This document shows, piece by piece, positions 1 to 14,660 of a stretch of 64,000 nt of DNA (position 1 is its first letter; every line of letters starts with the position of its first letter). The position numbers and the translations under genes were made by a program. The stretch lies in contig NZ_CP072347.1 of the NCBI RefSeq assembly GCF_018127925.1, positions 188,501 through 252,500 on the forward strand, read 5' to 3'. The notes beneath the pieces were generated by a model. It searched no databases and had not been told where the DNA came from. It was given only the letters and a program-made list of their open reading frames with translations. This DNA comes from Prevotella melaninogenica (GTDB lineage: Bacteria > Bacteroidota > Bacteroidia > Bacteroidales > Bacteroidaceae).

Positions 1-2
1 GG

Positions 3-269
3 GTCCTTTGTGCTCTGTTCTCACTTCTTTACCTAAATCCAACAATTGAACCTGATAATATCCACCCCACAGAGGACGAGAGAATTTTTAAGGTCTATGA
101 GTGTATAAAAAATGATAATCCAAAATACATAGTAATATTGGTTCAGTTTTTTAAGTATTGGGCAGAAATTTATCAGATAATCGATTTTCCTCCCAATCTA
201 CAAAACACAGAGGATTCCGTAGATAGGATTAAGGATTTTCTTACAGAGTATAAGAAGATAAAAGCGTGA
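3..269 (+). CDS. Hypothetical protein, 5' end outside window
   Basis: An open frame enters from the left edge and ends at a TGA at 267-269, giving 88 C-terminal residues of an unrecognised protein rich in Ile, Tyr and Lys. No start codon is visible, so the N-terminus lies outside the window. It converges on the minus-strand operon that ends at 379 and is separated from it by a terminator hairpin. I see no motif that allows a function call; soluble character is likely because no long hydrophobic stretch is present. The frame is real in that no stop occurs over its whole length, but a short open stretch can also arise by chance. Confidence 0.5.
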   Translation, partial: VLCALFSLLYLNPTIEPDNIHPTEDERIFKVYECIKNDNPKYIVILVQFFKYWAEIYQIIDFPPNLQNTEDSVDRIKDFLTEYKKIKA

Positions 270-343
270 TATTATTGATGTTTCTGCGACTTTCTTTTGC
301 TTCTTTTCTTTGGTCGCCTACTCGTTCAAAGAAAAAGAAAAGA

Positions 344-371
344 AGCCACGCAAGTTTGAGGTTGCGTGGCT
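344..371 (-). terminator. Rho-independent terminator of the PcfJ/PcfK operon
   Basis: A perfect 10-bp stem (AGCCACGCAA with TTGCGTGGCT) and 8-nt loop lie 8 nt beyond the stop of the gene at 379. On the minus strand a pyrimidine-rich TTCTTTTCTTTTTC tract follows. Confidence 0.75.
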
Positions 372-378
372 CATTGTG

Positions 379-597
379 TTAGGATTTTTCAATAGTTTCA
401 ATTATCCGTTCTTCGGGGTGGGTATCAAAAGCCCAGTTGATTTGTTCATCGGGCAGGATGCTGTGTACTCCTCTGCCCATCACCATACCACAATCTTCAA
501 GGATTTTACGCTCGGCTTCCTCTCGGTTTGTGGCTGCTACCTCAAATACTCCTTCAAAAATGTATTGGGTGCGTACTCTGTAAACATTCCTTTCCAT
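379..597 (-). CDS. Small conserved-element protein of unknown function (72 aa)
   Basis: The start at 597 begins MERNVYRV and lies 4 nt after the stop of the upstream gene at 602. A longer reading from 711 would overlap that gene by 110 bp, so the short form is preferred. The protein is acidic and soluble, with an alternating pattern (YRVRTQYIFEGVFEVAA) that suggests a small alpha/beta fold. It is the last gene of the minus-strand operon PcfK-PcfJ-84aa-72aa and is followed by a terminator at 344-371. No function is recognised; its context is the maintenance or transfer part of an integrative element. Confidence 0.6.
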   Translation of the reverse strand: MERNVYRVRTQYIFEGVFEVAATNREEAERKILEDCGMVMGRGVHSILPDEQINWAFDTHPEERIIETIEKS

Positions 598-601
598 ATC
601 T

Positions 602-856
602 TCAAAATTCAGCAATGAGTAATCTGTGTTCCATTGGCTCACCATTGGATAACCTACGATGGGTGAGCCAAAAATGGTGCGCTCCGTAACCATAGACAAA
701 GAACTTGTCAAGTTCCGTTTCTTGGGAGATTTGGAGGAGTGCGGTCTGCAATTCCTCCTTGTTCTCGGCTATGCTTATGGCGTTGATAACTCTCACGATA
801 ATATTGGGGATTTCGTCTGCCCAATTATGAATAATGTCTTCTATCTGTACTTTCAT
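602..856 (-). CDS. Hypothetical protein in conjugative-element operon (84 aa)
   Basis: An 84-aa soluble protein starting MKVQIEDIIHNW. It sits 25 bp downstream of the PcfJ-like gene and 4 bp upstream of the next small gene, so it is almost certainly cotranscribed with them. It is predicted mostly helical (residues 1-55), with an aromatic/His-rich end (VYGYGAHHFWLTHRR). No domain is recognised. Confidence 0.6.
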   Translation of the reverse strand: MKVQIEDIIHNWADEIPNIIVRVINAISIAENKEELQTALLQISQETELDKFFVYGYGAHHFWLTHRRLSNGEPMEHRLLIAEF

Positions 857-881
857 ACTCCTTTATTTAATGGCTCATACT

Positions 882-2156
882 TTATGCGGTTGCTTTCATT
901 CTTCGGCTTATAAGACCTCGATTAGCATTCACAAGGTTTACTATCTGCTCATGATATGCAGTATTCTTGTTGCACACCCCACGACTTTGCACCACTTCCA
1001 AAGTTCGTAAAGATACTTCAATGGTTTCTATTCGCTTGCCTTCAATGGTAGCCGAGAGGATAAGGGAGTCCTCCTTGAGGTAATAGGCGTTGGAAAATAC
1101 GCAATGATGCATTGATACACCTTCTTCCAAATGCTCCTGCACGCTCTCTAATACGTGGACTTGGATAGTGCCGTCCGTGAAACAGATACCGAAAAACTTG
1201 GATTTAAGTTCCTTGAAGCGTTTCTCATCTTCGATTGCCTTCTGCTGCTTCTTTTCTATCTCCTCCCTTTCACGCACTCTGAGAAGTTCCTCGTGTCTGC
1301 GGTCGTGTTCGCCTTTAAGGTCTGTTGGGCATAAATATTTTGGATTATGAATATCCTTACCTAATCTTCTAAGTGTATCTACATAATCATTCCAAAGAGA
1401 AATGTCTGCTATCTCATAGCCGTTACGGACTGCAATCTTGTAAGATTGCCATAGTTCTTCAAAAGTTCTCTTGTTGCCAAGAAAGTAACGTAAATGCTCT
1501 GTGCGACCTGCTTTTAGCAATGTTTCCACTCGGCTGTCTGTAAGTAATGCAGGAATAAACTTAGTAGGCACGATGCCATAGAAATTATCCTTAAAACCAT
1601 TTCTGCGAAGTATGTCTGTAACCTTGAACTTCGGATATATGGGTGAGTAGGCAATATGCTGATAGGCTTCATTATCGTTGCGTATCGCCATAGGACTATA
1701 ATAGGAAAAGGTATCAACATAGTGTCCCAATACCCTCTGTATGGCAACCACAGCTTTTCGTCCCTGCATATTCCACCAATATTGCCCAATCTCAATTATA
1801 GAAGTCTGTGCTTTGTAACCTTTCTCCATACCCACAATAAGTAGGAACATACGTAATACTTGAAACTCTCCACAAGTGGTAAGTAAGGTGAAATACTGCT
1901 TCTGCTGCAACTTGCGCTCGTATGTTTCCTTGACCTGCAACTTTGCCCTGCAATGAGGGCAAGTGCAAGTTTCTCTATGTTTGTCCATTACCCAACTATG
2001 CCCACAATCCATACAAGTAGTGCGACCTTTTGGCAAGCGGTAGGCGAAGTGGTCTATGCACTCACGAAATGCCCACTTACTTTGTGTCGTGGTTATCGGG
2101 CGAAGATGCTTGCTTTGTTCCAAAACTGCCTTTTCAAATTTGTTTCTCGGTTTCAT
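882..2156 (-). CDS. PcfJ-like protein of integrative/conjugative element
   Basis: A 424-aa protein with two CxxC pairs near the N-terminus (CMDCGHSW around residue 48 and CTCPHCRAK around 63) that look like a zinc ribbon. A long charged middle region follows, then a C-terminal PcfJ-type region (VQEHLEEGVSMHHCVF ... GKRIETIEVSLRTLEVVQ, about residues 330-400). PcfJ proteins are encoded in conjugative plasmids and in Bacteroidota integrative elements next to PcfK; their biochemical role is unsettled. Here the gene starts 4 bp after the PcfK-like stop codon, so the two form an operon. It marks the left part of the window as an integrative or conjugative element rather than core chromosome. Confidence 0.85.
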   Translation of the reverse strand: MKPRNKFEKAVLEQSKHLRPITTTQSKWAFRECIDHFAYRLPKGRTTCMDCGHSWVMDKHRETCTCPHCRAKLQVKETYERKLQQKQYFTLLTTCGEFQVLRMFLLIVGMEKGYKAQTSIIEIGQYWWNMQGRKAVVAIQRVLGHYVDTFSYYSPMAIRNDNEAYQHIAYSPIYPKFKVTDILRRNGFKDNFYGIVPTKFIPALLTDSRVETLLKAGRTEHLRYFLGNKRTFEELWQSYKIAVRNGYEIADISLWNDYVDTLRRLGKDIHNPKYLCPTDLKGEHDRRHEELLRVREREEIEKKQQKAIEDEKRFKELKSKFFGICFTDGTIQVHVLESVQEHLEEGVSMHHCVFSNAYYLKEDSLILSATIEGKRIETIEVSLRTLEVVQSRGVCNKNTAYHEQIVNLVNANRGLISRRMKATA

Positions 2157-2160
2157 AGGC

Positions 2161-2580
2161 TTAAAAATCGAATAGTGATGGTTGTACTTGGGTTGTCGCG
2201 TTCTCAGTCTTTTTCACTCGTGCGTTACGGCTCTGTAACTTAGCAAGTTCCTCACGCTGATATTGCTTAATGGCTTCCTGCCTTGCTTCGGCTTTTTCTT
2301 CCTCTGTGAGTTCTACAATGTGATTGACGGCAACTTGGCAAGAAATAGCCTTACCCACCTCTATATCGTCTTCATCGTAGTAGTGAACAGCCATAGAGAA
2401 GATTTCATCATCATCAAAGCCGTTGCAACCGCTTTTCTGCACTTCATTAAGAATGTAGGTGATGCACTCCTCGATATTCTTGTTCGGTTTCATCAAGTTA
2501 GGGGCAAACAAGGGGTCTGTCATAGCACGCTGATTGAGATACTCGGCTATTGTCCGTGTGAAATGTTCTGTTCCTTTCAT
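2161..2580 (-). CDS. PcfK-like protein
   Basis: A 139-aa acidic protein directly upstream of the PcfJ-like gene. Visible features are an N-terminal helical part (MKGTEHFTRTIAEYLNQRA), a conserved-looking segment (IEECITYILNEVQKSG) and an acidic stretch (DDDEIFSMAVHYYDEDDIEVG), ending in a Lys/Arg-rich helix and a C-terminal QPSLFDF, which resembles a beta-clamp-binding peptide. PcfK is the usual partner of PcfJ in Gram-positive conjugative plasmids and Bacteroidota elements. The clamp-binding idea is an inference from the terminal motif only. Confidence 0.8.
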   Translation of the reverse strand: MKGTEHFTRTIAEYLNQRAMTDPLFAPNLMKPNKNIEECITYILNEVQKSGCNGFDDDEIFSMAVHYYDEDDIEVGKAISCQVAVNHIVELTEEEKAEARQEAIKQYQREELAKLQSRNARVKKTENATTQVQPSLFDF

Positions 2581-2585
2581 ATTGC

Positions 2586-3017
2586 TTAGTATTTTGGGAT
2601 TTCTACTATTTGATTGATACGCCCATATAGGTAGGCTCTTAGGCTTGTTCTGTCAGGTGCGTAATACTCTGTCCATTGTCCGTACTGATTGACAAGATAT
2701 TTCTTCAGTACATCAAAGAAGTCAAAGCGATAGCCTTGCAGTGGAACGGCTGTTCGGAAATAGGTGTTTGAGTTCACCGCTTCACATAGCCAATTCTTTT
2801 CCTCACGGCTCATCATTTCGCCACGATAGAGTTTCATACGCAGGAGATATACTTTGCTATTACAAAGGCTCTCCAACGGGGGAACGTCCCATTGTACAAA
2901 CTTAATTGCCAACACTTGCTCACTTTTTTCAGCCGTAGGGTTAATGCGGTAATGAGAGGAGGAGCTATATCCTTTTTCTTTCATCGAAGATGTTGTATTT
3001 ACTTTTTGCTTATCCAT
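2586..3017 (-). CDS. Element-borne hypothetical protein (143 aa)
   Basis: Start chosen at 3017 (MDKQKVNTTSSM). A longer open frame from 3182 runs through DNA that looks non-coding and carries an opposing promoter. The C-terminal half (NWLCEAVNSNTYF ... YLVNQYGQWTEYYAPDRTSLRAYLYGRI) has the look of a conserved small domain, but I cannot name it. It lies 5 bp upstream of the PcfK-like gene and probably heads the five-gene minus-strand operon that ends at 379. Confidence 0.65.
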   Translation of the reverse strand: MDKQKVNTTSSMKEKGYSSSSHYRINPTAEKSEQVLAIKFVQWDVPPLESLCNSKVYLLRMKLYRGEMMSREEKNWLCEAVNSNTYFRTAVPLQGYRFDFFDVLKKYLVNQYGQWTEYYAPDRTSLRAYLYGRINQIVEIPKY

Positions 3018-3170
3018 AGCGACATTTTTTTTATGCGTCCAAAGATCGGAGTATGCTGATTCCTTTTTGTAGCAAAATAGAGGTAGCGGGGTGGGCTTGC
3101 ACAAGGTTTTGGCGGAAAATACAACCCGTAGGTGTGGAGATTTTCCAGACAAACCAAGCGGCACAGACCT

Positions 3171-3201
3171 TTTGCAAGCCACAAGCCCCGTACTACCTTT
3201 G
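3171..3201 (+). promoter_or_regulatory. Bacteroidota-type promoter facing a gene-free stretch
   Basis: TTTG at 3171-3174 and TACCTTTG at 3194-3201 are separated by 19 bp, an exact match to the -33/-7 consensus of the phylum. Transcription would run rightward from about 3208. No convincing plus-strand gene follows before the minus-strand gene at 3370-3717, so it may drive a small or antisense RNA. Confidence 0.6.
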
Positions 3202-3298
3202 CGGATAAAAAGGGAACAGCATCCGTCTCCTTGTCATCGCATATCGTGGAGCATTGGAAAAGAAGCAAAAGTGCAACGCTCGTAGTGGAAAATAGAAA

Positions 3299-3331
3299 AG
3301 GTGGCTATCTCAAAATACGAGATAACCACCT
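3299..3331 (-). terminator. Terminator hairpin after membrane-protein gene
   Basis: Stem AGGTGG-x-TATCTC pairs with GAGATA-x-CCACCT (one mismatch, 7-nt loop). On the minus strand it is followed by TTTTCTATTTT, so it would end transcripts of the gene whose stop is at 3370. Confidence 0.65.
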
Positions 3332-3369
3332 GATGAAATAAAATGAAAGTTTTTACAGAGCTATGCTTT

Positions 3370-3717
3370 TCAAAGCACGCAAAGCAGGATGGCACAGAGA
3401 ATTGCCAGCCAGAAGAGAATGCTCAGCAGCGTAAACGTCACTTTTAGAATTACCCTGACTATAAAACGTAGTATCAGAAAACCTGCAATGACAGAGACGA
3501 CAGTTACGACTTGCGGCGTTACCATCTTCGAGATAAGCCAAATGGCACCGATAACGATAGAAAGCAGGATAGTGAGTTCGATGAAGCGTGTCCAACCGAA
3601 GCGGTGGACTTGCTTGGGAGAAGTCGGCTGCTGCTTGTTCTTATCGGTTTTGTTCGATGCGTCTGCCTTGATGAAGGCAGGTGTGTGGACATCTTGATTC
3701 ATAATGATTGTATTCAT
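3370..3717 (-). CDS. Small two- to three-helix membrane protein
   Basis: A 115-aa protein with a hydrophilic N-terminal 40 residues followed by strongly hydrophobic stretches (IELTILLSIVIGAIWLI, VVTVVSVIAGFLILRFIV, FTLLSILFWLAILCAILL), so about three membrane helices. An alternative start at the second Met (MNQDVH) would shorten it by 5 residues. It is monocistronic on the minus strand between the DUF1896 gene and a terminator. Function unknown; such membrane proteins are common cargo of integrative elements. Confidence 0.6.
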   Translation of the reverse strand: MNTIIMNQDVHTPAFIKADASNKTDKNKQQPTSPKQVHRFGWTRFIELTILLSIVIGAIWLISKMVTPQVVTVVSVIAGFLILRFIVRVILKVTFTLLSILFWLAILCAILLCVL

Positions 3718-3856
3718 ATCGGAGCTTTTTATAGTTCAAGAGCATTTACAAGAGGCGCAGACTACACAAAGACAAGTGTTTGTACAAACTCTTGTCGTGT
3801 GGAGTGGAGCGTTTATCTTGGCTCTTGACACTACAAAAGCTCCCGATGGTGCTACA

Positions 3857-4321
3857 TCAAGTCATGTTCTCACCGCCTATCGTTGGCAGACCATTGACCT
3901 CAATGAGCAGAACGATTGTCCCTGTCAGTTCGGTGTAGAGTTTCTCATAATCTGGGCTTGCCCCAAAGTCGTCTGTCAGTTCGTACTTATTGAAAACGCT
4001 TTGCACAGCCTTATTCTTCAAAAGTATTGGTGTTAGTCTTTCTGGAAGAGGAGAAGGGAGTTCTTTCTCGAACTCATTCTCTAAAACTGAAACAAGGGTG
4101 TCGTACTTGGAGAAATGCAGTCCTTGATACAGAACTTCGCTTGCCTTCGTCTCCGCCTCGGGATGAGAAAAGCCTTGTGCCACTGCATCGCAGTAGGTAG
4201 TAAGGGCTTCGTCGGCTCTTGCCGTTATGAATGGTTTGTCACTCAGCATTTCGGGGAAATGCTCACTGAGATAATTCTCTAATTTCAAACGGAAGTAAGA
4301 TAGTTCTTTCTTTGTTTCCAT
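3857..4321 (-). CDS. DUF1896 family protein
   Basis: A 154-aa soluble protein beginning METKKELSYFRLKLENYLSEHFPEM. That opening and the following Arg/Ala-rich segment (FITARADEALTTYCDAVAQG) are typical of the DUF1896 family, found almost only in mobile elements of Bacteroidota. The role is unknown. It is encoded 35 bp downstream of the integrase stop, so it may be cotranscribed with it. Confidence 0.75.
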   Translation of the reverse strand: METKKELSYFRLKLENYLSEHFPEMLSDKPFITARADEALTTYCDAVAQGFSHPEAETKASEVLYQGLHFSKYDTLVSVLENEFEKELPSPLPERLTPILLKNKAVQSVFNKYELTDDFGASPDYEKLYTELTGTIVLLIEVNGLPTIGGENMT

Positions 4322-4356
4322 AATCGTCTATTATTTTAGGGTTATACATTAATATA

Positions 4357-5580
4357 TTATATGCCCATGGCTGTATTAAACTTACTGAGCTTTCCAGCCA
4401 GTTCTTCCATGTCACGTTCAACTTTCTTGTTTGTTATTCGTGCATAAATCTGAGTTATTCTGATATTTGTATGTCCAAGCATCTTTGATACAGACTCCAT
4501 TGGTACCCCTTTGGATATAGACATAGTGGCGAAAGTATGCCTTGCCATGTGGAAGGTCAGATTCTTTTTTATGCCACAAAGGTCGGCAATTTCTTTCAAA
4601 TATGAGTTGATACGCTGGTTGCTCAACATAGGAAAGACTTTCCCCCCTTTTCTATTGATGTCGTAGTACCTTCTTATAATGGCAAGTGGAATGTCCAGTA
4701 ACATGACGTTTTCATCTACGCTTGTCTTGTATCTCTTGGTGATAAGCCATTGTCTGTCTTCTACGGTAACAATTTTATCGTAGGTAAGATTATATACGTC
4801 AATGTAGGCTAATCCCGTGAAGCAGGAAAAAATAAAAATATTCTTTACTAACTCCAGCCGTTCTATGTCAAAGTGCTTCTTCATAATACGGAGTACCTCT
4901 TCTTCTGTGAGGTAGCCACGATCTACCAATTCATAGCGCAGCTTGTGATTCGCAAATGGATCATGCATGATAAGTCCTCTGTTCCTCGCATAGTTCACGA
5001 CCGTTTTCAGGTTTCTCAATTTCTTGGTGGTTGTGTTATGCACACCACCTACAACAGATGTAAGGTATAATTCGAAGTCCTGAACAACGGCACTTGTCAG
5101 TTCTGTCAGTCCAATATCCTTGCGATGATACTTTGCTTGTAGGAAATCCTGAAAGTTCTGCCTCACCACCTTATACTTATAAAAAGTACCCTTAGTTAAT
5201 GTCTTGCCAACTTGTTGTGTGATGGAGTCTATGTACTTGTCAAAGACTGGCAGAAAAGTTGTATATTCTTTGTCTGTACCAAGGAATACCGACCTGATAA
5301 GGTCTATGGAAAGTTCCTCTGATGTTTCATATTTCCTGTAAATCTGCATCAGCGTTGTTGTCAGTGCATCTATAGAAGCATTAATGGAGAGTGCTTCTGC
5401 TGTTCTGCCAATCATTCTGCTGGTTTTGTTACTCCACTTGGATTTATCCACAAAAATTTTAGTGGATCCAAGATTCGCCTTTTCGCCACCGAGATATATT
5501 CGGAGCATTACAGGTGATTTTCCTTCTTTGTTCTCATAGTTGGAACGTAGGTAGTAGGATACCTTGAAAGTTGTTTTCAT
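4357..5580 (-). CDS. Tyrosine recombinase/integrase of element 1
   Basis: A 407-aa phage-type integrase with an Arm-binding N-terminus (YYLRSNYENKEGKSPVMLRIYLG), a SAM-like core-binding domain around residues 110-210 and a C-terminal catalytic domain. The ARHTFATM box gives His and Arg, LGHTNIRITQIYARI gives the second His and the nucleophile Tyr379. In the first catalytic box (CFTGLAYIDVYNL) the usual Arg is not present at its normal place, as in IntDOT-like Bacteroidota recombinases. The gene lies just inside a tRNA remnant (5,890-5,935), the usual place for an integrase near its attachment site. It would integrate or excise the element that extends left. Confidence 0.92.
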   Translation of the reverse strand: MKTTFKVSYYLRSNYENKEGKSPVMLRIYLGGEKANLGSTKIFVDKSKWSNKTSRMIGRTAEALSINASIDALTTTLMQIYRKYETSEELSIDLIRSVFLGTDKEYTTFLPVFDKYIDSITQQVGKTLTKGTFYKYKVVRQNFQDFLQAKYHRKDIGLTELTSAVVQDFELYLTSVVGGVHNTTTKKLRNLKTVVNYARNRGLIMHDPFANHKLRYELVDRGYLTEEEVLRIMKKHFDIERLELVKNIFIFSCFTGLAYIDVYNLTYDKIVTVEDRQWLITKRYKTSVDENVMLLDIPLAIIRRYYDINRKGGKVFPMLSNQRINSYLKEIADLCGIKKNLTFHMARHTFATMSISKGVPMESVSKMLGHTNIRITQIYARITNKKVERDMEELAGKLSKFNTAMGI

Positions 5581-5595
5581 AACGCATCATTTTAG

Positions 5596-5757
5596 TGTAG
5601 CTTTTTGGCTACAAAGTTCGACATAAGTTCTTGAAAACGAAAGTTTTGCATGCCGTCAATTTGATAGTCATTTTCCATTCATTGCTACATTTTTTTGAGA
5701 GCCTGCTTTTGTGTAGCAATTTCTGTAGCAGAAAATGACCGAATGATGACTATCAAA
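5596..5757. repeat. Probable integrase-1 arm-binding repeats
   Basis: Between integrase 1 and the tRNA remnant there are several copies of TGTAGC or its complement (5596-5601, 5608-5613, 5684-5689, 5712-5717, 5724-5729). There is also a perfect 12-bp inverted repeat, TTTGATAGTCAT at 5660-5671 with ATGACTATCAAA at 5746-5757. Clustered short repeats beside an integrase near att are typical of arm sites; binding is inferred. Confidence 0.45.
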
Positions 5758-5800
5758 AGGTATAGTTTGGCAGTCAAACGGATATGGATAAAAAACAAAA

Positions 5801-5832
5801 AATCGCTGTAAAACCTTGATTTTACAGCGATT
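5801..5832 (-). terminator. Terminator inside the tRNA-proximal end of element 1
   Basis: A 13-bp perfect stem (AATCGCTGTAAAA with TTTTACAGCGATT) and 6-nt loop, followed on the minus strand by TTTTTGTTTTTT. It stands between the tRNA remnant and integrase 1 and would stop read-through from a tRNA at this junction. Confidence 0.8.
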
Positions 5833-5889
5833 ATCCTTGTTTTGAAGGCTAAAATGACGTATTGTTTGACGTCCTTTTGAAACCTATTT

Positions 5890-5935
5890 GTGGACCAGCC
5901 TGGGCTTGAACCAGGGACCTCCAGATTATGAGTCT
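5890..5935 (-). repeat. att direct repeat: 3' remnant of tRNA-CAU
   Basis: These 46 bp are identical to 14,586-14,631 and correspond to the 3' half of the tRNA gene, from the anticodon stem to the discriminator base. The 5' half is absent, so this copy is not a tRNA gene. It is the junction left when element 2 integrated into the tRNA. Confidence 0.9.
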
Positions 5936-6106: not shown

Positions 6107-6568
6107 TTACTCAAGTATTTTTTCATTTATTACGATAGGATTATCTTCGGAGTCCAAGGAACTATCTAAATAGAAAATCTCTGAAAACTGATTTTTATTA
6201 TACTCGAAATATAGTTTAACTCTTCTACATAATCTTAATTTTTTGTCATAACATAAGACTAATGATTTGTCCAAAGTCTTGAAAATAGAGGGATTGTCAA
6301 TCTTTGAATTAATCAAGGTTTTGTGAGTTTCTGCAATCCACTGCTTCTTTTCATTTTCAGACATTTCATCTACCATCCATAAATCTTCCACACCAAGTAT
6401 GTCGGGATTATCAAAGTGACTTAGTTCATTGATAATAGATGGGTGGATTAGATTGCTTTTTCTTTTTTCAACTTTGCATATTATTGTGTAGCCCCAATCT
6501 GCCCCCTCTTCACTTACTCTTATCTTAACTTCCTTACCCTGGTTATTTTTCTTTCTGTTCTGTTTCAT
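6107..6568 (-). CDS. Hypothetical cargo protein (153 aa)
   Basis: A Lys/Asn-rich soluble protein. Its start at 6568 lies within the end of the retropepsin-like gene (stop 6543, 26-bp overlap), so translation of the two is probably coupled. It begins with a basic tail (MKQNRKKNNQGKEVKIRV) and contains a WMVDEMSENEKKQWI segment. No family is recognised. As the last gene of the cargo operon and the overlapping partner of a protease, it could be a substrate or regulator, which is inference from position only. Confidence 0.6.
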   Translation of the reverse strand: MKQNRKKNNQGKEVKIRVSEEGADWGYTIICKVEKRKSNLIHPSIINELSHFDNPDILGVEDLWMVDEMSENEKKQWIAETHKTLINSKIDNPSIFKTLDKSLVLCYDKKLRLCRRVKLYFEYNKNQFSEIFYLDSSLDSEDNPIVINEKILE

Positions 6569-6977
6569 CTGTTACAATATAGTTCTTGAAATCAAGAGTC
6601 CAATGGTGTTCAAGGAGAAAGGACATGCCCAATATACCATGAATTTGTATGCCACAATCCTTATGAATTTTCCCCATAGCTGCATTGGCATCAATTATCA
6701 CCATTGGTATCTTATAATCTTTCTCTTCAAAGGAAAGATTTACTTCAACCATTTTTCCTTGTTGACTTTTGCCCTCAAAACCCATTAAATTATTTTGGGT
6801 GTTTAATGGCTTTATATCATCCTTAACAAACTCATATACATAGCTGAAAAGTATGTTGTGAGTAGAGCCTGTGTCAATAAGAAAACAAAGGTTTTTTATC
6901 TCTTTATTTGGTCCTTTCGATGAAATGATTAAAGGCATTCCAGCCTTAACCAATCCTGTGTGTAGTGGGAATATCAT
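6543..6977 (-). CDS. Retropepsin-like aspartyl protease
   Basis: A 144-aa protein with the two hallmarks of a single-lobe (retroviral-type) aspartic protease. These are an active-site turn LIDTGSTHN (Asp35-Thr36-Gly37-Ser38) and, 78 residues later, HGILGMSFL (113-121), the hydrophobic-Ile-Leu-Gly motif that packs behind the active site. The length fits a single retropepsin domain that must dimerise. There is no clear signal peptide, though the first 20 residues are hydrophobic. It overlaps the next gene (6107-6568) and follows a membrane-anchored small protein. The substrate is unknown. This is cargo of a small integrative element. Confidence 0.75.
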   Translation of the reverse strand: MIFPLHTGLVKAGMPLIISSKGPNKEIKNLCFLIDTGSTHNILFSYVYEFVKDDIKPLNTQNNLMGFEGKSQQGKMVEVNLSFEEKDYKIPMVIIDANAAMGKIHKDCGIQIHGILGMSFLLEHHWTLDFKNYIVTDETEQKEK

Positions 6978-6993
6978 CTATTATGTTTTGATA

Positions 6994-7401
6994 TTAATAA
7001 CCATACAGCTTCCTATCTCTGATTTGGTCTTGTTGTTGTATTTGTCCTTTAATAAACTCTTCAATAGTAGCTATCATATTATTCTGTGGGAAACCATCAG
7101 GAAAAGTCCAATTCTGCTTTTGAAAGCCAAGCAAAGGAACTTCCCCCTTAAACTTTACTTCTAAAGTATTCCCAACATAATCAAGACTCCAAGTAGCACC
7201 TCTACCTGCAAGTATTACAGAGTCTTTGGTTACTTTCGCCACTTTAAAAGTCCCCCCATCTTGTAGGTAATCCACAAAATCCTCATATTTTTTGAGCATG
7301 CCACCATATTTCGTAACATTCTCTTTAACATTACTATTATACTCACTATTGATTTTATACACAATAAAACCAATTACCACTAAAACTGCTATTATCCACA
7401 T
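6994..7401 (-). CDS. Membrane-anchored hypothetical protein (135 aa)
   Basis: An N-terminal hydrophobic segment (MWIIAVLVVIGFIVYKI) is followed by a soluble domain of about 115 residues that looks beta-rich (FKVAKVTKDSVILAGRGATWSLDYVGNTLEVKF) and ends in a short Gln-rich helix. It probably sits in the inner membrane with the domain on one face. It is 16 bp upstream of the retropepsin-like gene in the same operon. No family is recognised. Confidence 0.6.
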   Translation of the reverse strand: MWIIAVLVVIGFIVYKINSEYNSNVKENVTKYGGMLKKYEDFVDYLQDGGTFKVAKVTKDSVILAGRGATWSLDYVGNTLEVKFKGEVPLLGFQKQNWTFPDGFPQNNMIATIEEFIKGQIQQQDQIRDRKLYGY

Positions 7402-7419
7402 AACTTGTTTACTTGTTGA

Positions 7420-7689
7420 TTAAAAAGGTAAATCATCGTCCTCTTTTACTACATGATTGGGATGAACTTTCATGGACATCATTGTGTTCATTTCAGAGAG
7501 CCATTTTATCATGTAAAATGTACATGTGTTCTTTTCAGCTACACCAAAATGTTTTGCTTCTTCTGCTAATTTTTCATCTTTTAATTGGGATATAACCACT
7601 CCCAGTTCATCAAAATCAAAGGTTTCAAGTGTTTTCTCCATGAACACATGTTTTATATTGGGTATGTCACAGCCAAGATTTTTGACCAT
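7420..7689 (-). CDS. Hypothetical cargo protein (89 aa), possibly part of a frame-shifted gene
   Basis: A soluble, mainly helical protein (FDFDELGVVISQLKDEKLAEEAKHFG) with an acidic tail DDDLPF. Its start at 7689 overlaps the previous frame (stop 7653) by 37 bp, and it lies in the same reading frame as the gene two places upstream (7855-8067). The three frames may therefore be pieces of a single gene joined by frameshifts. No family recognised. Confidence 0.5.
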   Translation of the reverse strand: MVKNLGCDIPNIKHVFMEKTLETFDFDELGVVISQLKDEKLAEEAKHFGVAEKNTCTFYMIKWLSEMNTMMSMKVHPNHVVKEDDDLPF

Positions 7690-7931
7690 CTTACCATTGA
7701 TTGCATAAGTTCTTTTGTATCTTTATCATTAGAAGTGCTTAGGTCAACTCCTGTTAGTTCTTCTACCTGCTTCATCAATATTAAAATCTGTTCTGTAACT
7801 GCTGAAAACATTTCTAATTTGTCTGTATTATTTGTTTTGGCATGTGCATTATGATTATTGTTTGAAATGGGTGCATTCGCAGTTTTCTTGGCTGCATTTT
7901 TTTTTATTCCCCAAATAATGAAGAAGACCAC
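7653..7931 (-). CDS. Hypothetical cargo protein (92 aa), possibly frame-shift product
   Basis: This frame starts inside the preceding membrane protein gene (stop 7855) and contains an Asn/His/Ala-rich linker (ISNNNHNAHAKTNN), then a helix (FSAVTEQILILMKQVEELTG). A run of nine A residues in the sense strand (7897-7905) marks the point where the upstream frame could slip into this one. Read as a fusion, a two-helix membrane anchor would be followed by this linker and helix. Whether it is translated alone or by slippage cannot be told from sequence. Confidence 0.45.
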   Translation of the reverse strand: MVFFIIWGIKKNAAKKTANAPISNNNHNAHAKTNNTDKLEMFSAVTEQILILMKQVEELTGVDLSTSNDKDTKELMQSMVRWSKILAVTYPI

Positions 7932-8067
7932 CTATGGCACCCAATAGAAAAGCACCTGCCATTTTTGACATAACTACATCTGCATTTACATGATTAGCAG
8001 ATGCAATAATTGCTACAAGTAAATTCATTGCAGCAAAGATTTCTAAAATAATTCCAAAAACTTTCAT
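7855..8067 (-). CDS. Two-helix membrane protein (70 aa)
   Basis: Two hydrophobic stretches (MKVFGIILEIFAAMNLLVAII and MAGAFLLGAIGGLLHYLG) are followed by a Cys-rich tail (KKKCSQENCECTHF). The tail is encoded after the A9 run, so it may be replaced by the alternative frame 7653-7931 if slippage occurs. It is the second gene of the cargo operon, 54 bp after the 145-aa zinc-ribbon-like gene. Function unknown. Confidence 0.5.
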   Translation of the reverse strand: MKVFGIILEIFAAMNLLVAIIASANHVNADVVMSKMAGAFLLGAIGGLLHYLGNKKKCSQENCECTHFKQ

Positions 8068-8121
8068 TTTGTTATGCTTATGATAGTTTATACTTAACTC
8101 CTATTAAGCCACTATTGCAAT

Positions 8122-8559
8122 CTATATTATTGCCTTTACAAGATACCAAGGAATAAAAAGTAAGGACAGCATACACCCTGTGTTATTTGAAGGGTTGATT
8201 GAAACTCCTTGCTCTTTATTAACACAAGACTGGCAAATTTGAAAATGACAATTAGGGTCATATCCAGAAGTAAAGCGTCCAGGTACTTCTATGTTTTTAC
8301 CACACATTGGACATCTCCCATTGTTAAGAAGGCCAATACTTTTAAGATAATTGATTTCTTTAGCCCCACTCACAACTCCAAGAATAAAGGTTTCAGGGTC
8401 TTCGGCATAAGCTTTATACGGCTCATAGTCTTTCTCCCATTTACCAGTTTCCTTATTAAATCCTTTAGCCTTAAATCCAGCTTCATTTAATTCTTTTGCC
8501 ATAGTTTCATTCCATTCATGCCATGACATTTTTCTAATCTCTGATTTTGTGTACTTCAT
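8122..8559 (-). CDS. Zinc-ribbon-like membrane-anchored protein (145 aa)
   Basis: Start taken at 8559 (MKYTKSEIRKMSWHEW); the frame stays open to 8697, but that part runs through a repeat-rich leader. The N-terminal 60 residues resemble a small helical domain. They are followed by a CPMCGKN pair (Cys83/Cys86) and CQSC (Cys109/Cys112) that could bind one zinc, and by a hydrophobic C-terminal helix (MLSLLFIPWYLVKAII). It is the first gene of the cargo operon, behind a long structured leader and a -7 box at 8825-8832. Confidence 0.6.
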   Translation of the reverse strand: MKYTKSEIRKMSWHEWNETMAKELNEAGFKAKGFNKETGKWEKDYEPYKAYAEDPETFILGVVSGAKEINYLKSIGLLNNGRCPMCGKNIEVPGRFTSGYDPNCHFQICQSCVNKEQGVSINPSNNTGCMLSLLFIPWYLVKAII

Positions 8560-8585
8560 TATATACAAGTTTGAATAAATAATTT

Positions 8586-8700
8586 GGTTATAGGCACAAA
8601 AAAGGTGCAAGCTAAACCCTGAATGCTTATCAGAAGGCATCGCCAAACACCTATAACCAATCAAACAAGGAAAGCCCACACCCATAGGTGCAAGCATTCA
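8586..8700 (-). repeat. Structured leader with nested direct and inverted repeats
   Basis: GGTTATAGG (8586-8594) is inverted as CCTATAACC (8650-8658). TGAATGCTT (8620-8628) is inverted as AAGCATTCA (8692-8700). AGGTGCAAGC is repeated directly at 8603-8612 and 8686-8695. The block lies between a -7 box and the first cargo gene, so it is probably transcribed. It could be a cis-regulatory RNA, a small RNA or an origin-like site. Confidence 0.5.
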
Positions 8701-9057: not shown

Positions 9058-10095
9058 TTACTCAATAAACCAAGCAAAATCTTTATTCACATTACTAATG
9101 GTATCACATAGACCAAATGCTACATCAGAAGCATTATTTGCTCTATCCAAGAAATTATCAATGTAGGAAGTCTTGTTGGCACCTGTAAATAGGTTATATA
9201 CATTCCACATACTAATTTCCTTGTTATTATCATTATGATGGGAAAAATTCTCATCTTGATAATATGACCTTGCAACAAGCCCTATCTGTGTATCAGTTAA
9301 TAACACAGGTGGAAGTAACTTCTTGCTTGATGCAGGAATATATTGGTAAAGCCTACTTTTACCAATAAATTGAGCAAACTGATGCTCTGTCATTGAGTAA
9401 TTTTGCAGTGCTGACATCATCTGTAAATGACTCTCAAACTTATAACTTTGAAACAATCTAATTGCTTCTTGCATCAAATCATTTACTGACATAACCTTTA
9501 ACTCTGACTTATACCCATCTGTACTAACACACATATTGCAACACACAAGGTTTTTAAAGCCAATAAATACCTTGAACTTCTCCATACTCTTCTTGCTGTA
9601 GAGATTTTCATGGTTATAGGCTCTTACTCCTCCTATGGTGAGATTTAACCTATTACCATCAATTGTTTCAAAGATGGTAGGTATTTCAAAGCAAAACATC
9701 ATTCTCTCGTAATAGATGGTCTTTTCTTCTTCCAAAAGCATATTGACTGGTTTAAAGATTGCTTCGGGTGTTCTACCTTTGATAATATGGCTGACTCTAA
9801 TCAAAGGCTTGTTTATCTCTTCTTGTGGGAAAACTGTATTTGCAGCATTCCAAATAGCTTCGATAAACTCTGGGTGAGAAATTGTCACCTCATTATCCTT
9901 GCTAAATACTGGTACTATGCAGTCTTTCTGTAAGTGCATGAAGTCCACTTCTTTTGTGTTGGCTTCAATAAATGGTAGCCTTGAAATAGGCTTATCCAAT
10001 GTTGACCTCAAAGAGGTAATTGGTAAAGGGTCATTACTATATAAGATAGGAAAGCTCTGCTTAGCTCTGACTGGTTGTAATTGCATTATTTCCAT
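9058..10095 (-). CDS. DUF3871 family protein
   Basis: A 345-aa soluble protein. The segments LIRVSHIIKGRTPEAIFKPV, RMMFCFEIPTIFE, LTIGGVRAYNHENLYSKK and the closing part with VYNLFTGANKTSYIDNFLDR are typical of DUF3871, a Bacteroidota family of mobile elements related in layout to DUF932-type proteins. The start overlaps the ATPase gene by 35 bp, indicating coupling. DUF3871 genes commonly sit next to a RecA-like ATPase in such elements, and a DNA-processing or recombination role is often supposed but not shown. Confidence 0.8.
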   Translation of the reverse strand: MEIMQLQPVRAKQSFPILYSNDPLPITSLRSTLDKPISRLPFIEANTKEVDFMHLQKDCIVPVFSKDNEVTISHPEFIEAIWNAANTVFPQEEINKPLIRVSHIIKGRTPEAIFKPVNMLLEEEKTIYYERMMFCFEIPTIFETIDGNRLNLTIGGVRAYNHENLYSKKSMEKFKVFIGFKNLVCCNMCVSTDGYKSELKVMSVNDLMQEAIRLFQSYKFESHLQMMSALQNYSMTEHQFAQFIGKSRLYQYIPASSKKLLPPVLLTDTQIGLVARSYYQDENFSHHNDNNKEISMWNVYNLFTGANKTSYIDNFLDRANNASDVAFGLCDTISNVNKDFAWFIE

Positions 10096-10942
10096 TTTGA
10101 ATGTAGTTAAATGGTTGACTTATAATTCTTTTCTCACTATTTTGAAGATGCTTCTTCTTCTCAACAAACTCAAAATTAAGCTGCTGATAATATTCGGGAT
10201 ATTGATGGTATATCCTTGTAAGCTCTTCCAAAGTTTGGCAGTCTTTAATCTGCTGTTTAATAGTCTGCATACTCACACCATCATTACACCAATCAGATAT
10301 TTTCTCTCCTGTTTGGCTTGTAATGGTGAAGTCAGGCTGACCCACAAAGAGATTAGTTCTATCCTTGGAGGTTACACATTGATGCTTCATATTAATATCA
10401 AACACAATGGTAAATTCATAATCTATTCCATCTCTCATAACAGCTTTCAATCCTACCTTTTCAGGCACCATCTTGCCATTCTTCTCATTAAGAACATAAT
10501 CCTGTTTACACCTCATGGTGCAAATGATATGTCTATTACTCTGTAGAATTTTCTGCATAAAAGCATTTATTCTTGGAGTGATTTTCTGCCAATTAGTAAA
10601 GCTATTCCCTTGCAAATTAGCATGATATTCAAGAAGATTATCCCAACATAATGAAATGGAGTCTATAATGATTACTTCCATTCCTGCACTTTCACATACA
10701 TTGATAGCTTCAATGTAATTTTCGGGTGTAAAATTCTCTTTTAGCTGTAATACATTGTACTCTCCAAGACTGGCATATAAATCAGCACTTCCATTCTCTG
10801 TGTCAATGATTGCAATCTTATTCCAATCATGACATAAACCATAAGCTAATAATAGTGCAGAATAGGTCTTTCCACTACCTGCACAACCTTGTAAAGCAAG
10901 TTTTATTTTTACCTGCTTCTTTGTTGTTTGCCTTAACTCCAT
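10061..10942 (-). CDS. RecA-like P-loop ATPase (AAA_24/Sak4-like)
   Basis: Start taken at 10942 (MELRQTTKKQ); an upstream Met at 10990 would add 16 atypical residues. The 293-aa product has a Walker A GCAGSGKT (about residues 19-26), a following IIDTENGSADLY strand and a Walker B VIIIDSIS (about 90-97), arranged as in short RecA-like NTPases of phages (Sak4 type). These assist single-strand annealing or recombination. The C-terminus (about 230-293) is helical and basic. It overlaps the DUF3871 gene and follows the 90-aa gene, so it belongs to the replication or recombination operon of element 2. Confidence 0.8.
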   Translation of the reverse strand: MELRQTTKKQVKIKLALQGCAGSGKTYSALLLAYGLCHDWNKIAIIDTENGSADLYASLGEYNVLQLKENFTPENYIEAINVCESAGMEVIIIDSISLCWDNLLEYHANLQGNSFTNWQKITPRINAFMQKILQSNRHIICTMRCKQDYVLNEKNGKMVPEKVGLKAVMRDGIDYEFTIVFDINMKHQCVTSKDRTNLFVGQPDFTITSQTGEKISDWCNDGVSMQTIKQQIKDCQTLEELTRIYHQYPEYYQQLNFEFVEKKKHLQNSEKRIISQPFNYIQNGNNAITTSQS

Positions 10943-11012
10943 ATCATAAAAATTTAATGGTTCAGAAATAAAATAGCAAGAAGTTTTCACCTCTTGCTAT
11001 TAACTTTCAATC

Positions 11013-11285
11013 TTACAAAGTAGCTAATGTAGCTGCTGCATTCTCTGCTCTTTCATGTAACAAGTAGAACATATCTCCTGTTTCAGCTGAGCATACTTGT
11101 GAGATAACAGGTGTCTTGAGTTCTCCTTTCAAAAACCTCTCACTCACAGCACCTGTTTCAAATCCATAAGTGAAGAAGCATTTACCTGTTGCAGGGTTTT
11201 GCTTCACTTCAATCACATTCACTCCCTTTTGAGCTTTAAACTCCTCCACAGACAATGTCTGAATAAATTTCAATGTACTTTCCAT
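11013..11285 (-). CDS. Hypothetical protein (90 aa) beside ATPase
   Basis: A small soluble protein with a helical start (LKFIQTLSVEEFKAQKG) and a beta-like middle (VIEVKQNPATGKCFFTYGFE), ending AENAAATLATL. It lies 70 bp upstream of the ATPase start and 245 bp downstream of the polymerase-like gene. The size and fold pattern would suit a nucleic-acid-binding accessory factor, but no family is recognised. Confidence 0.55.
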   Translation of the reverse strand: MESTLKFIQTLSVEEFKAQKGVNVIEVKQNPATGKCFFTYGFETGAVSERFLKGELKTPVISQVCSAETGDMFYLLHERAENAAATLATL

Positions 11286-11320
11286 AATTCTTTTTTGTTA
11301 ATTGTTATGGGAGGGAATAT

Positions 11321-11342
11321 CCCCTTGCCCAAAGGCAAGGGG
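11321..11342. repeat. GC-rich hairpin in the 11,286-11,529 spacer
   Basis: A perfect 9-bp stem (CCCCTTGCC with GGCAAGGGG, CAAA loop) in an otherwise AT-rich 244-bp gene-free spacer between the polymerase-like gene and the 90-aa gene. No T-tract follows on the minus strand, so it may attenuate, stabilise mRNA or bind a protein rather than terminate. No other gene is seen in the spacer. Confidence 0.45.
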
Positions 11343-11529
11343 GGGGTTGGGTGGTGTATGTTGCTCACAGAAAGATAGGGGCTTAATATATTTCAAATAG
11401 CCCATAGGGGGGCATATTGCACCTTTCGGGATTATAGATTATGCCAAAAATGTTGTAAAAAAAAGATATGAAAGACAGACTGCTTATTATTTTGCCCAAA
11501 ATATCCTCAAAAGTGCTTAGTTTCCTATC

Positions 11530-13104
11530 TTACAAGGATAAATTCCGTGGAGTCCAATACTCCTTTTTTAGGTTGGGGGTAACTTGGACTATATCATTTA
11601 AAGTTGTAGTCATTACATTGAAGACTAAGTCTTCATACTCCAAAGTTGTGCAGATTGAGTCATGTATTGTAAATATAGGTACTTGATGAGCATTTTCTTC
11701 CCATATTTTTTTGCAGCATATTTGTAGTACTATAGTGCTCTCTATTGATTGAAGTAGTACTGCCAATTTTTTCTTGCCATCTCTTCCTTTCTTTATGGCA
11801 TGTATTAATCCGTAAATCTTTGGGAATGAGAGCTTAAAAAGTTTTTTAAGTTTTGCACCTGGCTGATTTAAAAATTTGTTGTCTGAGAAGAAAGTCATCA
11901 GTATCATAATTTTCATATCTTTTCTTTGATATTCTTCACCATTTTCTCTTGTCCTTTCTAACATATACTCATAAATATGTCCTTCAGAAGCATAGTGTAT
12001 GTATTCATTGACCTTTTCATCATGCCTTATTCTATATACATAGGCTTGCAATGATGATAAATCTTCTTCTGAAAATAAGTTTTGAACATTTGCAGGTAAC
12101 TTACCTATGTTTACAGCTAATGCTGAACTTTTATCCCAAAACAAAGGATTTAAGAGTAAGCATAATAGGTAAGGTTGACTATTAGAAATATCAATACTAA
12201 CTAAGTCCCTTCCATCATATTTAATGAAATTTCTATAGTCTTTTTGCATATTGGTAAGTACAGAGTGAAGCCTATGCACAGTATCATCTATTTTAACTTT
12301 ATAATCTTCCTGTATTATAGACTCAATATTATAACGTATTGCATAATATTGTAACTTTGGATTCTTCCTTTGATGGGTGTCTCTGTTGTAATCCCAAGTA
12401 TCAACCCCTCCTGCAATCTTTTCTCTATATTTTCTTTCTGCATATTCTAATGCAATGCTTGCATTAATTTGCAGGTTATTGTTATACCAAGAAAGCAGGT
12501 AATTATTACCAGCTTCTATAACTGCACTATGAGATTGATTTTCTCGTGAATGTCTGTATATGTAAGTTCTTAGTGGAGAATTACAATAAGTATCACTTAA
12601 TTTGTACCCAATAGATTTTTTCCCTACTATGTATTGGCTATCTGTTATGAAAATACCTGTACGAAGTAAGTAGTCTAAATATGATAGGTAATCTTTAAAA
12701 AAGTCCCTTAAAATTGCAGAATTGATACTAACAAAACCATCTTCTGATATTAAGTCCTTATTTCTGCCTGGGATGGAATAAATCAAGCCAATTAGATAAA
12801 TTAATCTTTCTTCATCAAATACAGCACCAAAAGTTCCATTAGTATTTACAGTCTTTATGTGTCCACCACAATCCTCTACAAAATAATAATTTGTCACAGG
12901 AAAATTTCTTAAATGAGCTTCTAAATCCAAGTTAGCAGGTATAAAGGCAAATTTTCCCGAGTGTTCAGGTCTTATACCAAGTCCACTTGCAATAGAATGA
13001 ACTTTTGGTTGAGAAGCAACCCAATTTAAAAGGTCTTGCTTAGCTTTCAACCATTCCTTGCTTGTCTCATAAACTACTGATTTGTTCTGTTTTCTATTAT
13101 TCAT
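11530..13104 (-). CDS. Putative family-A/T7-like single-subunit polymerase
   Basis: A 524-aa protein not annotated by any family I recognise at full length, but with the ordered motifs of the PolA/T7 RNA polymerase superfamily. Motif A is LVSIDISNSQPYLL (Asp305). An EGHIYEYMLERT helix (about 374-385) resembles the DIH region of Pol I. Motif B is QRKDMKIMILMTFFS, with Arg394, Lys398 and Phe406 at the canonical +4 and +12 spacing. A Gln-containing helix (LLQSIEST, 450-457) precedes motif C FTIHDSICT (His481-Asp482-Ser483). The motif A to C distance (177) equals that of E. coli Pol I. No exonuclease domain is visible. Residues about 128-172 look like a winged helix. It heads the minus-strand replication-like operon. 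The alternative, a coincidental match, is less likely because five motifs occur in order. Confidence 0.65.
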   Translation of the reverse strand: MNNRKQNKSVVYETSKEWLKAKQDLLNWVASQPKVHSIASGLGIRPEHSGKFAFIPANLDLEAHLRNFPVTNYYFVEDCGGHIKTVNTNGTFGAVFDEERLIYLIGLIYSIPGRNKDLISEDGFVSINSAILRDFFKDYLSYLDYLLRTGIFITDSQYIVGKKSIGYKLSDTYCNSPLRTYIYRHSRENQSHSAVIEAGNNYLLSWYNNNLQINASIALEYAERKYREKIAGGVDTWDYNRDTHQRKNPKLQYYAIRYNIESIIQEDYKVKIDDTVHRLHSVLTNMQKDYRNFIKYDGRDLVSIDISNSQPYLLCLLLNPLFWDKSSALAVNIGKLPANVQNLFSEEDLSSLQAYVYRIRHDEKVNEYIHYASEGHIYEYMLERTRENGEEYQRKDMKIMILMTFFSDNKFLNQPGAKLKKLFKLSFPKIYGLIHAIKKGRDGKKKLAVLLQSIESTIVLQICCKKIWEENAHQVPIFTIHDSICTTLEYEDLVFNVMTTTLNDIVQVTPNLKKEYWTPRNLSL

Positions 13105-13179: not shown

Positions 13180-14442
13180 TTAGAATACTGAATTTATTAC
13201 TTTTTCATTCGCATCATTTTCCATCTTAAAATCCCTTTCAATATAAATATCGGTGATTTTCATTTTCTCATCAATATGGTTCAATGCAGAGTGAACAGCA
13301 TACTTATCAACTCCAGCCTTATTCACAGCTATAGTTGCCCAAGAATGCCTTGCAGCATAAAATTCAAGGTCTTCTAAGTGGAGAACTTTTCCCACCTGTT
13401 TAAGCCCTATATTCAAGGCTGCATTGAATGTATCAGCAGTAGAATACCATTGATAGAATTTGAAAATTCTCTTCCCTGTAATGTCCTTATACTTCTCAAT
13501 GAGTGGCAAGGCTAAAGATGGTATCTTTACCACCATCTTTGCATTGTCAGCTCTTCTTTCCTTAGTCTTGCACCTGTAATAGATAATACAATTATCTTTA
13601 AGTTCTGAACAAGTAAAGAGGTCTGCTGAGTTCATTCCCATCAAGAAAAATGACAGCATAAAGCAATCCTTTGCCAAATCAAATCTACAAAGTTTATTTA
13701 CACCTTTCCCCTCTTTAAGGTCAGCAAGTTGCCAAATAGCCTTAATTTGTTGGGTAGTAATAGCCCTTTTCCTTGTGGCTTCCTGTCTTGGTACTTTGAA
13801 ATTCTCAAAGGGTGAATGAGGTATGATAATAATTCCCCTGTCATAGTCATTATACTTCTTCTTTGCTTCATTAAAAAGATGCCTTATACTGCCCAAGTAA
13901 AGTGATACTGCTCTATTAGATGTTTTACTATTACTCTTGGAGGTCAGCTTCTTATCTTTCTTTTCCTTGTTCTTACAGAGATATTCTGCATATTGAGTAA
14001 GAAGTTTGATGGTTAAATCATTGATATTTAGGTTATCTTTTCCGAGAAACCTCACAAATGAATTGATGCAATATTTATAATTATCAGCACCTTTAATGGT
14101 TGCAGTCTCAATCCAATCCCTACTGAATTTTATAAAATCAATAGGCTTGTTCTTCTGCTCTTCTCCTTTAAGGTTGGCAATTATATCATCAATGGTGTAA
14201 TCCTCTCTTTCTACTTGGAGGTTATTTCCTATATCTTGATAGTATGTAATTAAATCATCTATCCTTTTCTTTAGTTTACAACCATTCTTGATTTTCAAGG
14301 ATTTTGTAAGTTCTGATTTATGGATATAGATGTTTGTCGATATTCTCTTAACCTGTCTTTTATAGGTGATTCTTACTTTTACATTGTATGTATCATCTGC
14401 TCTTAATCCACTTTTTAATATTTCTGCTTTGATAGTCAGCAT
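13180..14442 (-). CDS. Tyrosine recombinase/integrase of element 2
   Basis: A 420-aa integrase with an N-terminal Arm-type domain (MLTIKAEILKSGLRADDTYN ... VRITYKRQV), a core-binding domain around residues 100-210 and a catalytic domain. In the latter AARHSWATIAV supplies the His-Arg box and LNHIDEKMKITDIYI the last His and Tyr400. The first-box Arg is replaced (GMNSADLF), as is common in Bacteroidota integrases. It points away from the tRNA, has its own -7 box at 14530-14537 and is flanked by 17-bp arm-like repeats. It should recombine the 46-bp tRNA-derived repeats. Confidence 0.93.
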   Translation of the reverse strand: MLTIKAEILKSGLRADDTYNVKVRITYKRQVKRISTNIYIHKSELTKSLKIKNGCKLKKRIDDLITYYQDIGNNLQVEREDYTIDDIIANLKGEEQKNKPIDFIKFSRDWIETATIKGADNYKYCINSFVRFLGKDNLNINDLTIKLLTQYAEYLCKNKEKKDKKLTSKSNSKTSNRAVSLYLGSIRHLFNEAKKKYNDYDRGIIIIPHSPFENFKVPRQEATRKRAITTQQIKAIWQLADLKEGKGVNKLCRFDLAKDCFMLSFFLMGMNSADLFTCSELKDNCIIYYRCKTKERRADNAKMVVKIPSLALPLIEKYKDITGKRIFKFYQWYSTADTFNAALNIGLKQVGKVLHLEDLEFYAARHSWATIAVNKAGVDKYAVHSALNHIDEKMKITDIYIERDFKMENDANEKVINSVF

Positions 14443-14585: not shown

Positions 14586-14631
14586 GTGGACCAGCCTGGG
14601 CTTGAACCAGGGACCTCCAGATTATGAGTCT
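14586..14631 (-). repeat. att direct repeat at the intact tRNA
   Basis: 46 bp identical to 5,890-5,935. This copy completes the functional tRNA, so integration preserved the gene. Confidence 0.9.
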
Positions 14632-14660
14632 GTTGCTCTAACCAACTGAGCTACAAGTCC
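14588..14660 (-). tRNA. tRNA with CAU anticodon (elongator Met; Ile2 possible)
   Basis: A 73-nt cloverleaf reading GGACTTGTAGCTCAG at its 5' end, with a CTCATAA anticodon loop, GGTTCAAGC T-loop region and CTGGTCC acceptor strand. No CCA is encoded. Acceptor pairs are mostly Watson-Crick, so it is not the initiator (which is at 29,342). A CAU elongator can be Met or lysidine-modified Ile, and sequence alone does not settle it. It is the integration target of element 2 and probably also of element 1. Confidence 0.9.

Follow-up and report, generated by a model that had tools for sequence, protein, structure and literature searches.

Compact family-A DNA polymerases of mobile elements are known from several described systems, and we compared them with a protein of 524 aa encoded in Prevotella melaninogenica. 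The window, i.e., the whole stretch of DNA analyzed, comprises 64,000 nucleotides (contig NZ_CP072347.1, positions 188,501–252,500), and the gene is located in it on a small element integrated into a tRNA-Met gene. Its product is a compact TV-Pol-like polymerase and most likely serves the small integrative element as primase-polymerase; the element is one of Bacteroidota, judging by the named relatives. Small family-A polymerases of this general kind are already known; a different set of helpers and a changed sugar-gate residue are new here. There are few primases outside the DnaG and AEP types. With its different helpers, its changed sugar gate, and related proteins in very large phages, this branch offers a clean comparison for the conversion of a family-A polymerase into a primase. 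The same comparison bears on the self-copying of small tRNA islands for which no Rep protein is known.

The TV-Pols were described in 2008 by Iyer, Abhiman, and Aravind as proteins of 400–600 aa, encoded on mobile elements, with bacteroidetes among the hosts; they contained no domain recognised at that time and were predicted to be primase-polymerases (PMC2579912). The PolA-SSB primases, with CcPol-MP of SCCmec as the prototype, were all described as pairs from Bacillota; CcPol primes with deoxynucleotides only in the presence of its small partner MP, for which an OB fold was predicted, and alone it only extends primers (PMC7581432, PMC10061031). The 2020 eLife paper states that CcPol keeps Glu710 and Phe762 of DNA polymerase I (Pol I) and was by then the sole biochemically characterised TV-Pol (PMC7581432). 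A further source presents divPolA1 and divPolA2 as extra, exonuclease-less phage PolAs with an unsettled role (PMC11348598).

The window polymerase resembles the TV-Pols in size, a minimal family-A core, the hairpin Arg, two palm Asp residues, the RxxxK motif, and the lack of a recognised nuclease domain, as well as in its mobile setting: TV-Pol elements carry a lambda-type integrase or a resolvase, and the element here is an integrating one. However, no D5-like helicase domain, as neighbor or fusion, was found in the 12 island open reading frames (ORFs) scanned, and a RecA-like ATPase and a DUF3871 protein were encoded instead. The N-terminal piece is winged-helix-like here and all-helical in TV-Pols, and Gln occupies position Asp+5, where five TV-Pol-like sequences have His. 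With the PolA-SSB primases, the locus shares a family-A core encoded on an element, with the gene of a small beta-rich protein and that of an ATPase after it, on an integrated island with a recombinase. In contrast to them, the host belongs to Bacteroidota, a COG3378/DUF927 helicase was not found downstream (an AAA_24 RecA-like ATPase is present instead), the integrase is of the tyrosine type, and the barrel of the 90-aa partner candidate is OB-like only in strand order. Similarly to this family, divPolA2 of barbaviruses and Vibrio phages has about 430 aa, no exonuclease, and a novel N-terminal domain, and coexists with PolB (PMC11348598). Its motifs A (DFKAFE) and C (FDE) retain the Glu residues that are Gln and Ser, respectively, in our family. 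divPolA2 was not among the five records retrieved by tblastn from the window.

Fold and conserved residues of the polymerase

An earlier note, made from the sequence alone, had proposed a divergent single-subunit polymerase, and a family-A type enzyme was confirmed by structure and profile matches to Pol I. The right-hand palm, on the presence of which that proposal had been staked, was found together with thumb and fingers in a confident structure model. All 50 matches listed in the structure search were titled as family-A DNA polymerases or their complexes, and identity with Pol I was 10–16% in the rows listed. The protein has motifs A, B, and C as in Pol I; unlike Pol I, it does not match Pfam DNA_pol_A, which was also absent among the 25 families listed for the 53 aligned sequences described below. 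No nuclease family was found in the polymerase by the Pfam scan, in agreement with the earlier note. Some structure-match rows extend into the N-terminal part (47..521); thus, a remnant of a 3'-5' exonuclease domain may be present there. The winged-helix-like piece, previously placed at residues 128–172, was supported by the model but shifted to ~98–169 (helices 98–114, 129–135, and 139–148; strands 125–128, 152–154, and 164–169). The N-terminal domain, compared alone with that of TV-Pols, gave P values of 0.08–0.18 (best control 0.086), i.e., not significant. The Sputnik protein was not among the 50 viral rows listed, which excludes nothing.

The protein had also been called unrecognised. This is correct for Pfam (best match DUF3723, E 0.037, below the cut-off), for NCBIfam and PADLOC, where no polymerase match was found, and for a phmmer search of PDB sequences, which gave nothing recognisable. 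It does not hold for the literature, since TV-Pols were known from 2008, and their size and lack of a recognised domain in that year also contradict the statement that greater length and a recognisable sequence are the norm for such enzymes on mobile elements (PMC2579912). PHROG 4756, of unknown function, matched the window polymerase (6e-5) and 16 of the 53 aligned sequences. Single-protein scans of viral contigs gave nothing for the polymerase and one locus for the 90-aa protein. We failed to find by title any paper on the combination of the polymerase with its helpers in the open-licence literature, a scope outside which most subscription-journal papers fall; the titles listed concerned AEP primases and archaeal dark-matter islands.

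The ORF and the motif residues named earlier were all in place (Asp305 in IDISNSQ, HIYEYMLERT at 376–385, Arg394/Lys398/Phe406, the Gln452 helix, and IHDS with Asp482); the plus strand across 11530–13104 is closed by many stops. The alignment (A4) consisted of 53 rows, the window polymerase and 52 of 53 non-redundant relatives (from 65); locus L015 was excluded because of its broken frame. Copies, fragments, or fusions (L001, L056, L002, L003, L004, L025, and L047), matches weaker than 1e-25, and two pieces shorter than 330 residues had been removed before the relatives were counted. R278, D305, Q310, K398, E455, and D482 were invariant (53/53), and R291 was kept in 52 rows; position 394 was occupied by R (45) or K (6), position 406 by F (45), Y (7), or N (1), and position 402 by L, F, Y, M, I, or V. 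The motif A Asp (D305, 53), motif B R/KxxxK (R/K394, 51; K398, 53), and motif C Asp (D482, 53) were, thus, all present, and R278 and R291, located ahead of motif A, are both candidates for the hairpin Arg. As judged from the alignment, this is the kind of residue set expected of a polymerase active site, and conservation across the rows indicates that the motifs are not chance.

In the alignment with Pol I, Gln310, position 402, Phe406, and Ser483 correspond to Glu710, Phe762, Tyr766, and Glu883 (E. coli numbering), respectively. The sugar-gate Glu of Pol I type was absent from motif A, being replaced by Gln310 in all 53 rows, and Ser483 stood at the place of the Pol I Glu in 52 rows. In contrast to CcPol, the family has Gln for Glu710 and Leu, Phe, Tyr, Met, Ile, or Val for Phe762. 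These differences suggest a different choice of sugar.

Profile comparison with other polymerases

Profiles were compared by hhalign, in local mode unless stated; 21 unrelated families and two reversed alignments served as controls, with best P values of 0.065 (whole protein) and 0.046 (C-terminal part). Against a Pol I profile built from up to 30 Bacteroidota loci (L083–L112), A4 had P values of 1.8e-5 and 7.9e-6, respectively; R394/K398, H481-D482, and the helix with the Gln lined up with their Pol I counterparts. The comparison with divPolA2 (AUR84708) gave 4.5e-4 over 182 columns. The TV-Pol-like set included five or six proteins from two Polaromonas plasmids and Microcystis phages, with or without Calothrix; its only member named in 2008 is the LMM01 gene, the identity of which is presumed. 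Six sequences gave a P value of 3.3e-5, two different five-sequence sets 0.0034 and 0.0028, and the LMM01 protein alone 0.089. Common to the families are the pattern D-[I/L/V]-x-[N/K]-x-[H/Q] following the motif A Asp and the pattern [LI]QxxE. Global-mode P values, believed to be uncalibrated and read against the controls alone, were 4.4e-8 for Pol I, 1.4e-7 to 8.3e-7 for TV-Pol, and 0.41 for T7 RNA polymerase; the 23 controls gave 0.045 at best. A later comparison took in 12 further loci, 10 of which were removed by the redundancy cut.

T7-type RNA polymerases (19 non-redundant) reached 0.02 for the whole protein and 0.012 for the C-terminal part, near the controls. The profiles, thus, appear to link the family to Pol I, TV-Pol, and divPolA2; the match with T7 RNA polymerase barely exceeds chance. 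The closeness to T7 RNA polymerase, proposed earlier from HDS in motif C, was not upheld: both profiles and structures are nearer to Pol I, and HDS alone is a weak guide, considering the replacement of the Pol I Glu by Ser483.

Function of the polymerase

Among the functions considered, primase-polymerase or replicase, already named in the earlier note, is the best reading. The polymerase rather probably serves as catalytic subunit in a DNA replication module that belongs to the element itself; it would be an exonuclease-less, compact family-A enzyme of the TV-Pol kind that primes de novo. The integrase would excise the 8.7-kb element from the tRNA-Met gene, the 90-aa barrel protein would hold the single-stranded template and bind the polymerase, and the RecA-like ATPase (and the DUF3871 protein) would manage the strands. 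With the element DNA as its substrate, the polymerase would lay primers de novo and then extend them, resulting in either replication of the circle or duplexing of a transferred single strand for insertion by the integrase. Computation establishes the polymerase fold, the conservation of the catalytic residues, the element boundaries, and the recurrent gene order; polymerization, priming, binding of the 90-aa protein to the enzyme and to single-stranded DNA, and the element as substrate are predicted. The TV-Pol link is unstable in local mode, where the P value shifts with the member set. It is possible, but doubtful, that the family forms a separate clade of two-component primase-polymerases across Bacteroidota islands and phages of up to 735 kb, with the invariant Gln for the sugar-gate Glu, partnered by a novel OB-type protein and, in place of a D5 helicase, by a RecA-like ATPase; owing to the Gln, one enzyme would therefore start with ribonucleotides and extend with deoxynucleotides.

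A primer-dependent, low-fidelity polymerase for gap filling or second strands, primed by the host and incapable of de novo priming, is a tentative alternative. The nearest enzyme by profile and structure, Pol I, extends primers; CcPol alone does only this (PMC7581432, PMC10061031); and another DNA polymerase was found in 10 of 25 chosen records of relatives (Pol B in nine, Pol III in one, and Pol A in one, the Pol III record). However, a gene for a small partner follows the polymerase in six of seven testable loci, as in CcPol-MP, and the minimal core, in which no exonuclease was detected, looks like that of the primase type. Whether relatives replace an absent primase or polymerase in viruses is not decided by the 25-record survey, many records being fragments; the DnaG N-terminal domain was below the cut-off in 4 of the 25.

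A single-subunit RNA polymerase specific to the element, as the earlier note also proposed, or to a phage, with a promoter-reading winged helix and a transcribing core, is improbable. Gln310 in place of the Pol I Glu and Phe406 at what we take to be the site of Tyr766 in Pol I and Tyr639 in T7 RNA polymerase may admit ribonucleotides. The best match of the A4 profile to PDB sequences was RNAP2 (6dt7, presumably of phage N4), not significant (E 0.31) but with two collinear motifs, and the authors of divPolA2 leave an RNA polymerase open for that protein (PMC11348598). Against this stand the near-control profile values for T7 RNA polymerase, the lack of a long N-terminal domain of the T7 kind, and the recombination-type genes nearby. 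A part in a defence or conflict system rather than in replication is very unlikely: such a role was raised for PolA-SSB primases generally (PMC10061031) and a PDC-M08B candidate defence protein is encoded on the same island, but no PADLOC match was obtained for the polymerase, ATPase, DUF3871 protein, or 90-aa protein, and some relatives lie in viral contigs near helicase, exonuclease, and single-strand-binding protein genes.

The tRNA-Met island and distribution of relatives

The small tRNA island noticed earlier was corroborated by computed boundaries: the 46 bp at the 3' end of the tRNA-Met gene recur exactly at the distal end, enclosing ~8.7 kb with a G+C content of ~0.32–0.36 versus 0.40–0.48 in segments wholly outside. 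Its features are listed in Table 1.

Table 1. Features of the island and of its polymerase (coordinates in the window unless residues are given).
Feature	Location	Strand	Basis or details
Family-A-type (TV-Pol-like) polymerase, 524 aa, ATG start	11530..13104	-	ORF, alignment, model
Polymerase layout	residues ~98-169; ~189-522		winged-helix-like piece; thumb/palm/fingers
Polymerase motifs	D305; R394/K398/F406; Q452/E455; H481-D482		motif A; motif B helix; helix; motif C
tRNA-Met (CAT), integration target	14586..14660	-	
46-bp attachment repeat, copy in tRNA gene	14586..14631	-	exact repeat
46-bp attachment repeat, distal copy	5890..5935	-	exact repeat
Tyrosine integrase	13180..14442	-	Arm-DNA-bind_5, Phage_int_SAM_5; PHROG integrase
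90-aa protein, downstream of polymerase	11013..11285	-	
RecA-like ATPase	10061..10990	-	Pfam AAA_24; PHROG Sak4-like ssDNA annealing protein
DUF3871 protein, function unknown, overlaps ATPase gene	9058..10095	-	
Retropepsin-like cargo (below Pfam cut-off)	6543..6977	-	PADLOC candidate defence family PDC-M08B, E 5.9e-8
Other small cargo ORFs (191, 70, 92, 89, 135, 153 aa)	6107..8697	-	no clear family

The gene order from the tRNA is integrase, polymerase, 90-aa protein, AAA_24/Sak4-like ATPase, DUF3871 protein, and small cargo. The first five genes occurred in the same order in L007, L008, and L011. L015 had four of the five up to the contig end, with broken integrase and polymerase frames; L018 lacked the ATPase, L010 had only the integrase and polymerase, and L009 had too little flank. 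The model of the 90-aa protein is a predicted small beta barrel with OB-like strand order and with weak, non-significant structure matches (best PDB sequence match of its profile E 0.43, a dynein); it is a candidate single-strand-DNA-binding partner. Members of its family also occurred in viral contigs whose fetched flanks lacked the polymerase (L080 and L082), in L080 before DUF3871. The intergenic region 11286–11529, between the polymerase and 90-aa genes, contained a G+C-rich inverted repeat, ccccttgcctttgggcaagggg, with no clear T run. In the open-licence literature, DUF3871 appeared in one paper, on iron deficiency. The retropepsin-like protein is possible defence cargo, and a 153-aa ORF of no known family (6107–6568, minus strand) adjoins it.

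A third copy of the repeat was located ~95.7 kb further on the same contig (G000:C1:98729-98774); therefore, another element, larger and equipped with an integrase of its own, probably abuts the island in tandem. This probable element (G000:C1:98729-194435, window 1–5889) encoded a tyrosine integrase (4357–5580), DUF1896, and PcfJ-like genes. Since partial repeat copies were present in several genomes of the genus, tRNA-Met looks like an integration hotspot.

Relatives of the polymerase were found in 6 of 301 genomes of the same bacterial family and 15 of 395 of the phylum, the source genome included in both; one in the family was only a fragment with internal stops. Five loci were in named contigs (uncultured Bacteroidales, Merdivivens, uncultured Bacteroidaceae, Dysgonomonas, and Phocaeicola). 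Further relatives were located in 41 viral contigs, on a Hymenobacter plasmid, and, by tblastn from the window, in five uncultured-phage records of 595–735 kb. In the polymerase-core tree, from which L015 was absent, the seven element rows grouped together (98/97), separate from the remaining rows of viral contigs and genomes; the deep order is unsure because of many long branches. In the 595-kb phage LR756511.1 (L014), which also had a Pol III alpha match, a co-oriented gene matching DNA_pol_A adjoins that of the compact polymerase (393932–394588 and 395212–396159, both minus strand). On the Polaromonas plasmid pW9NP1 (L195 37-2497), a TV-Pol-like gene annotated as hypothetical lies directly before the plasmid RepA gene.
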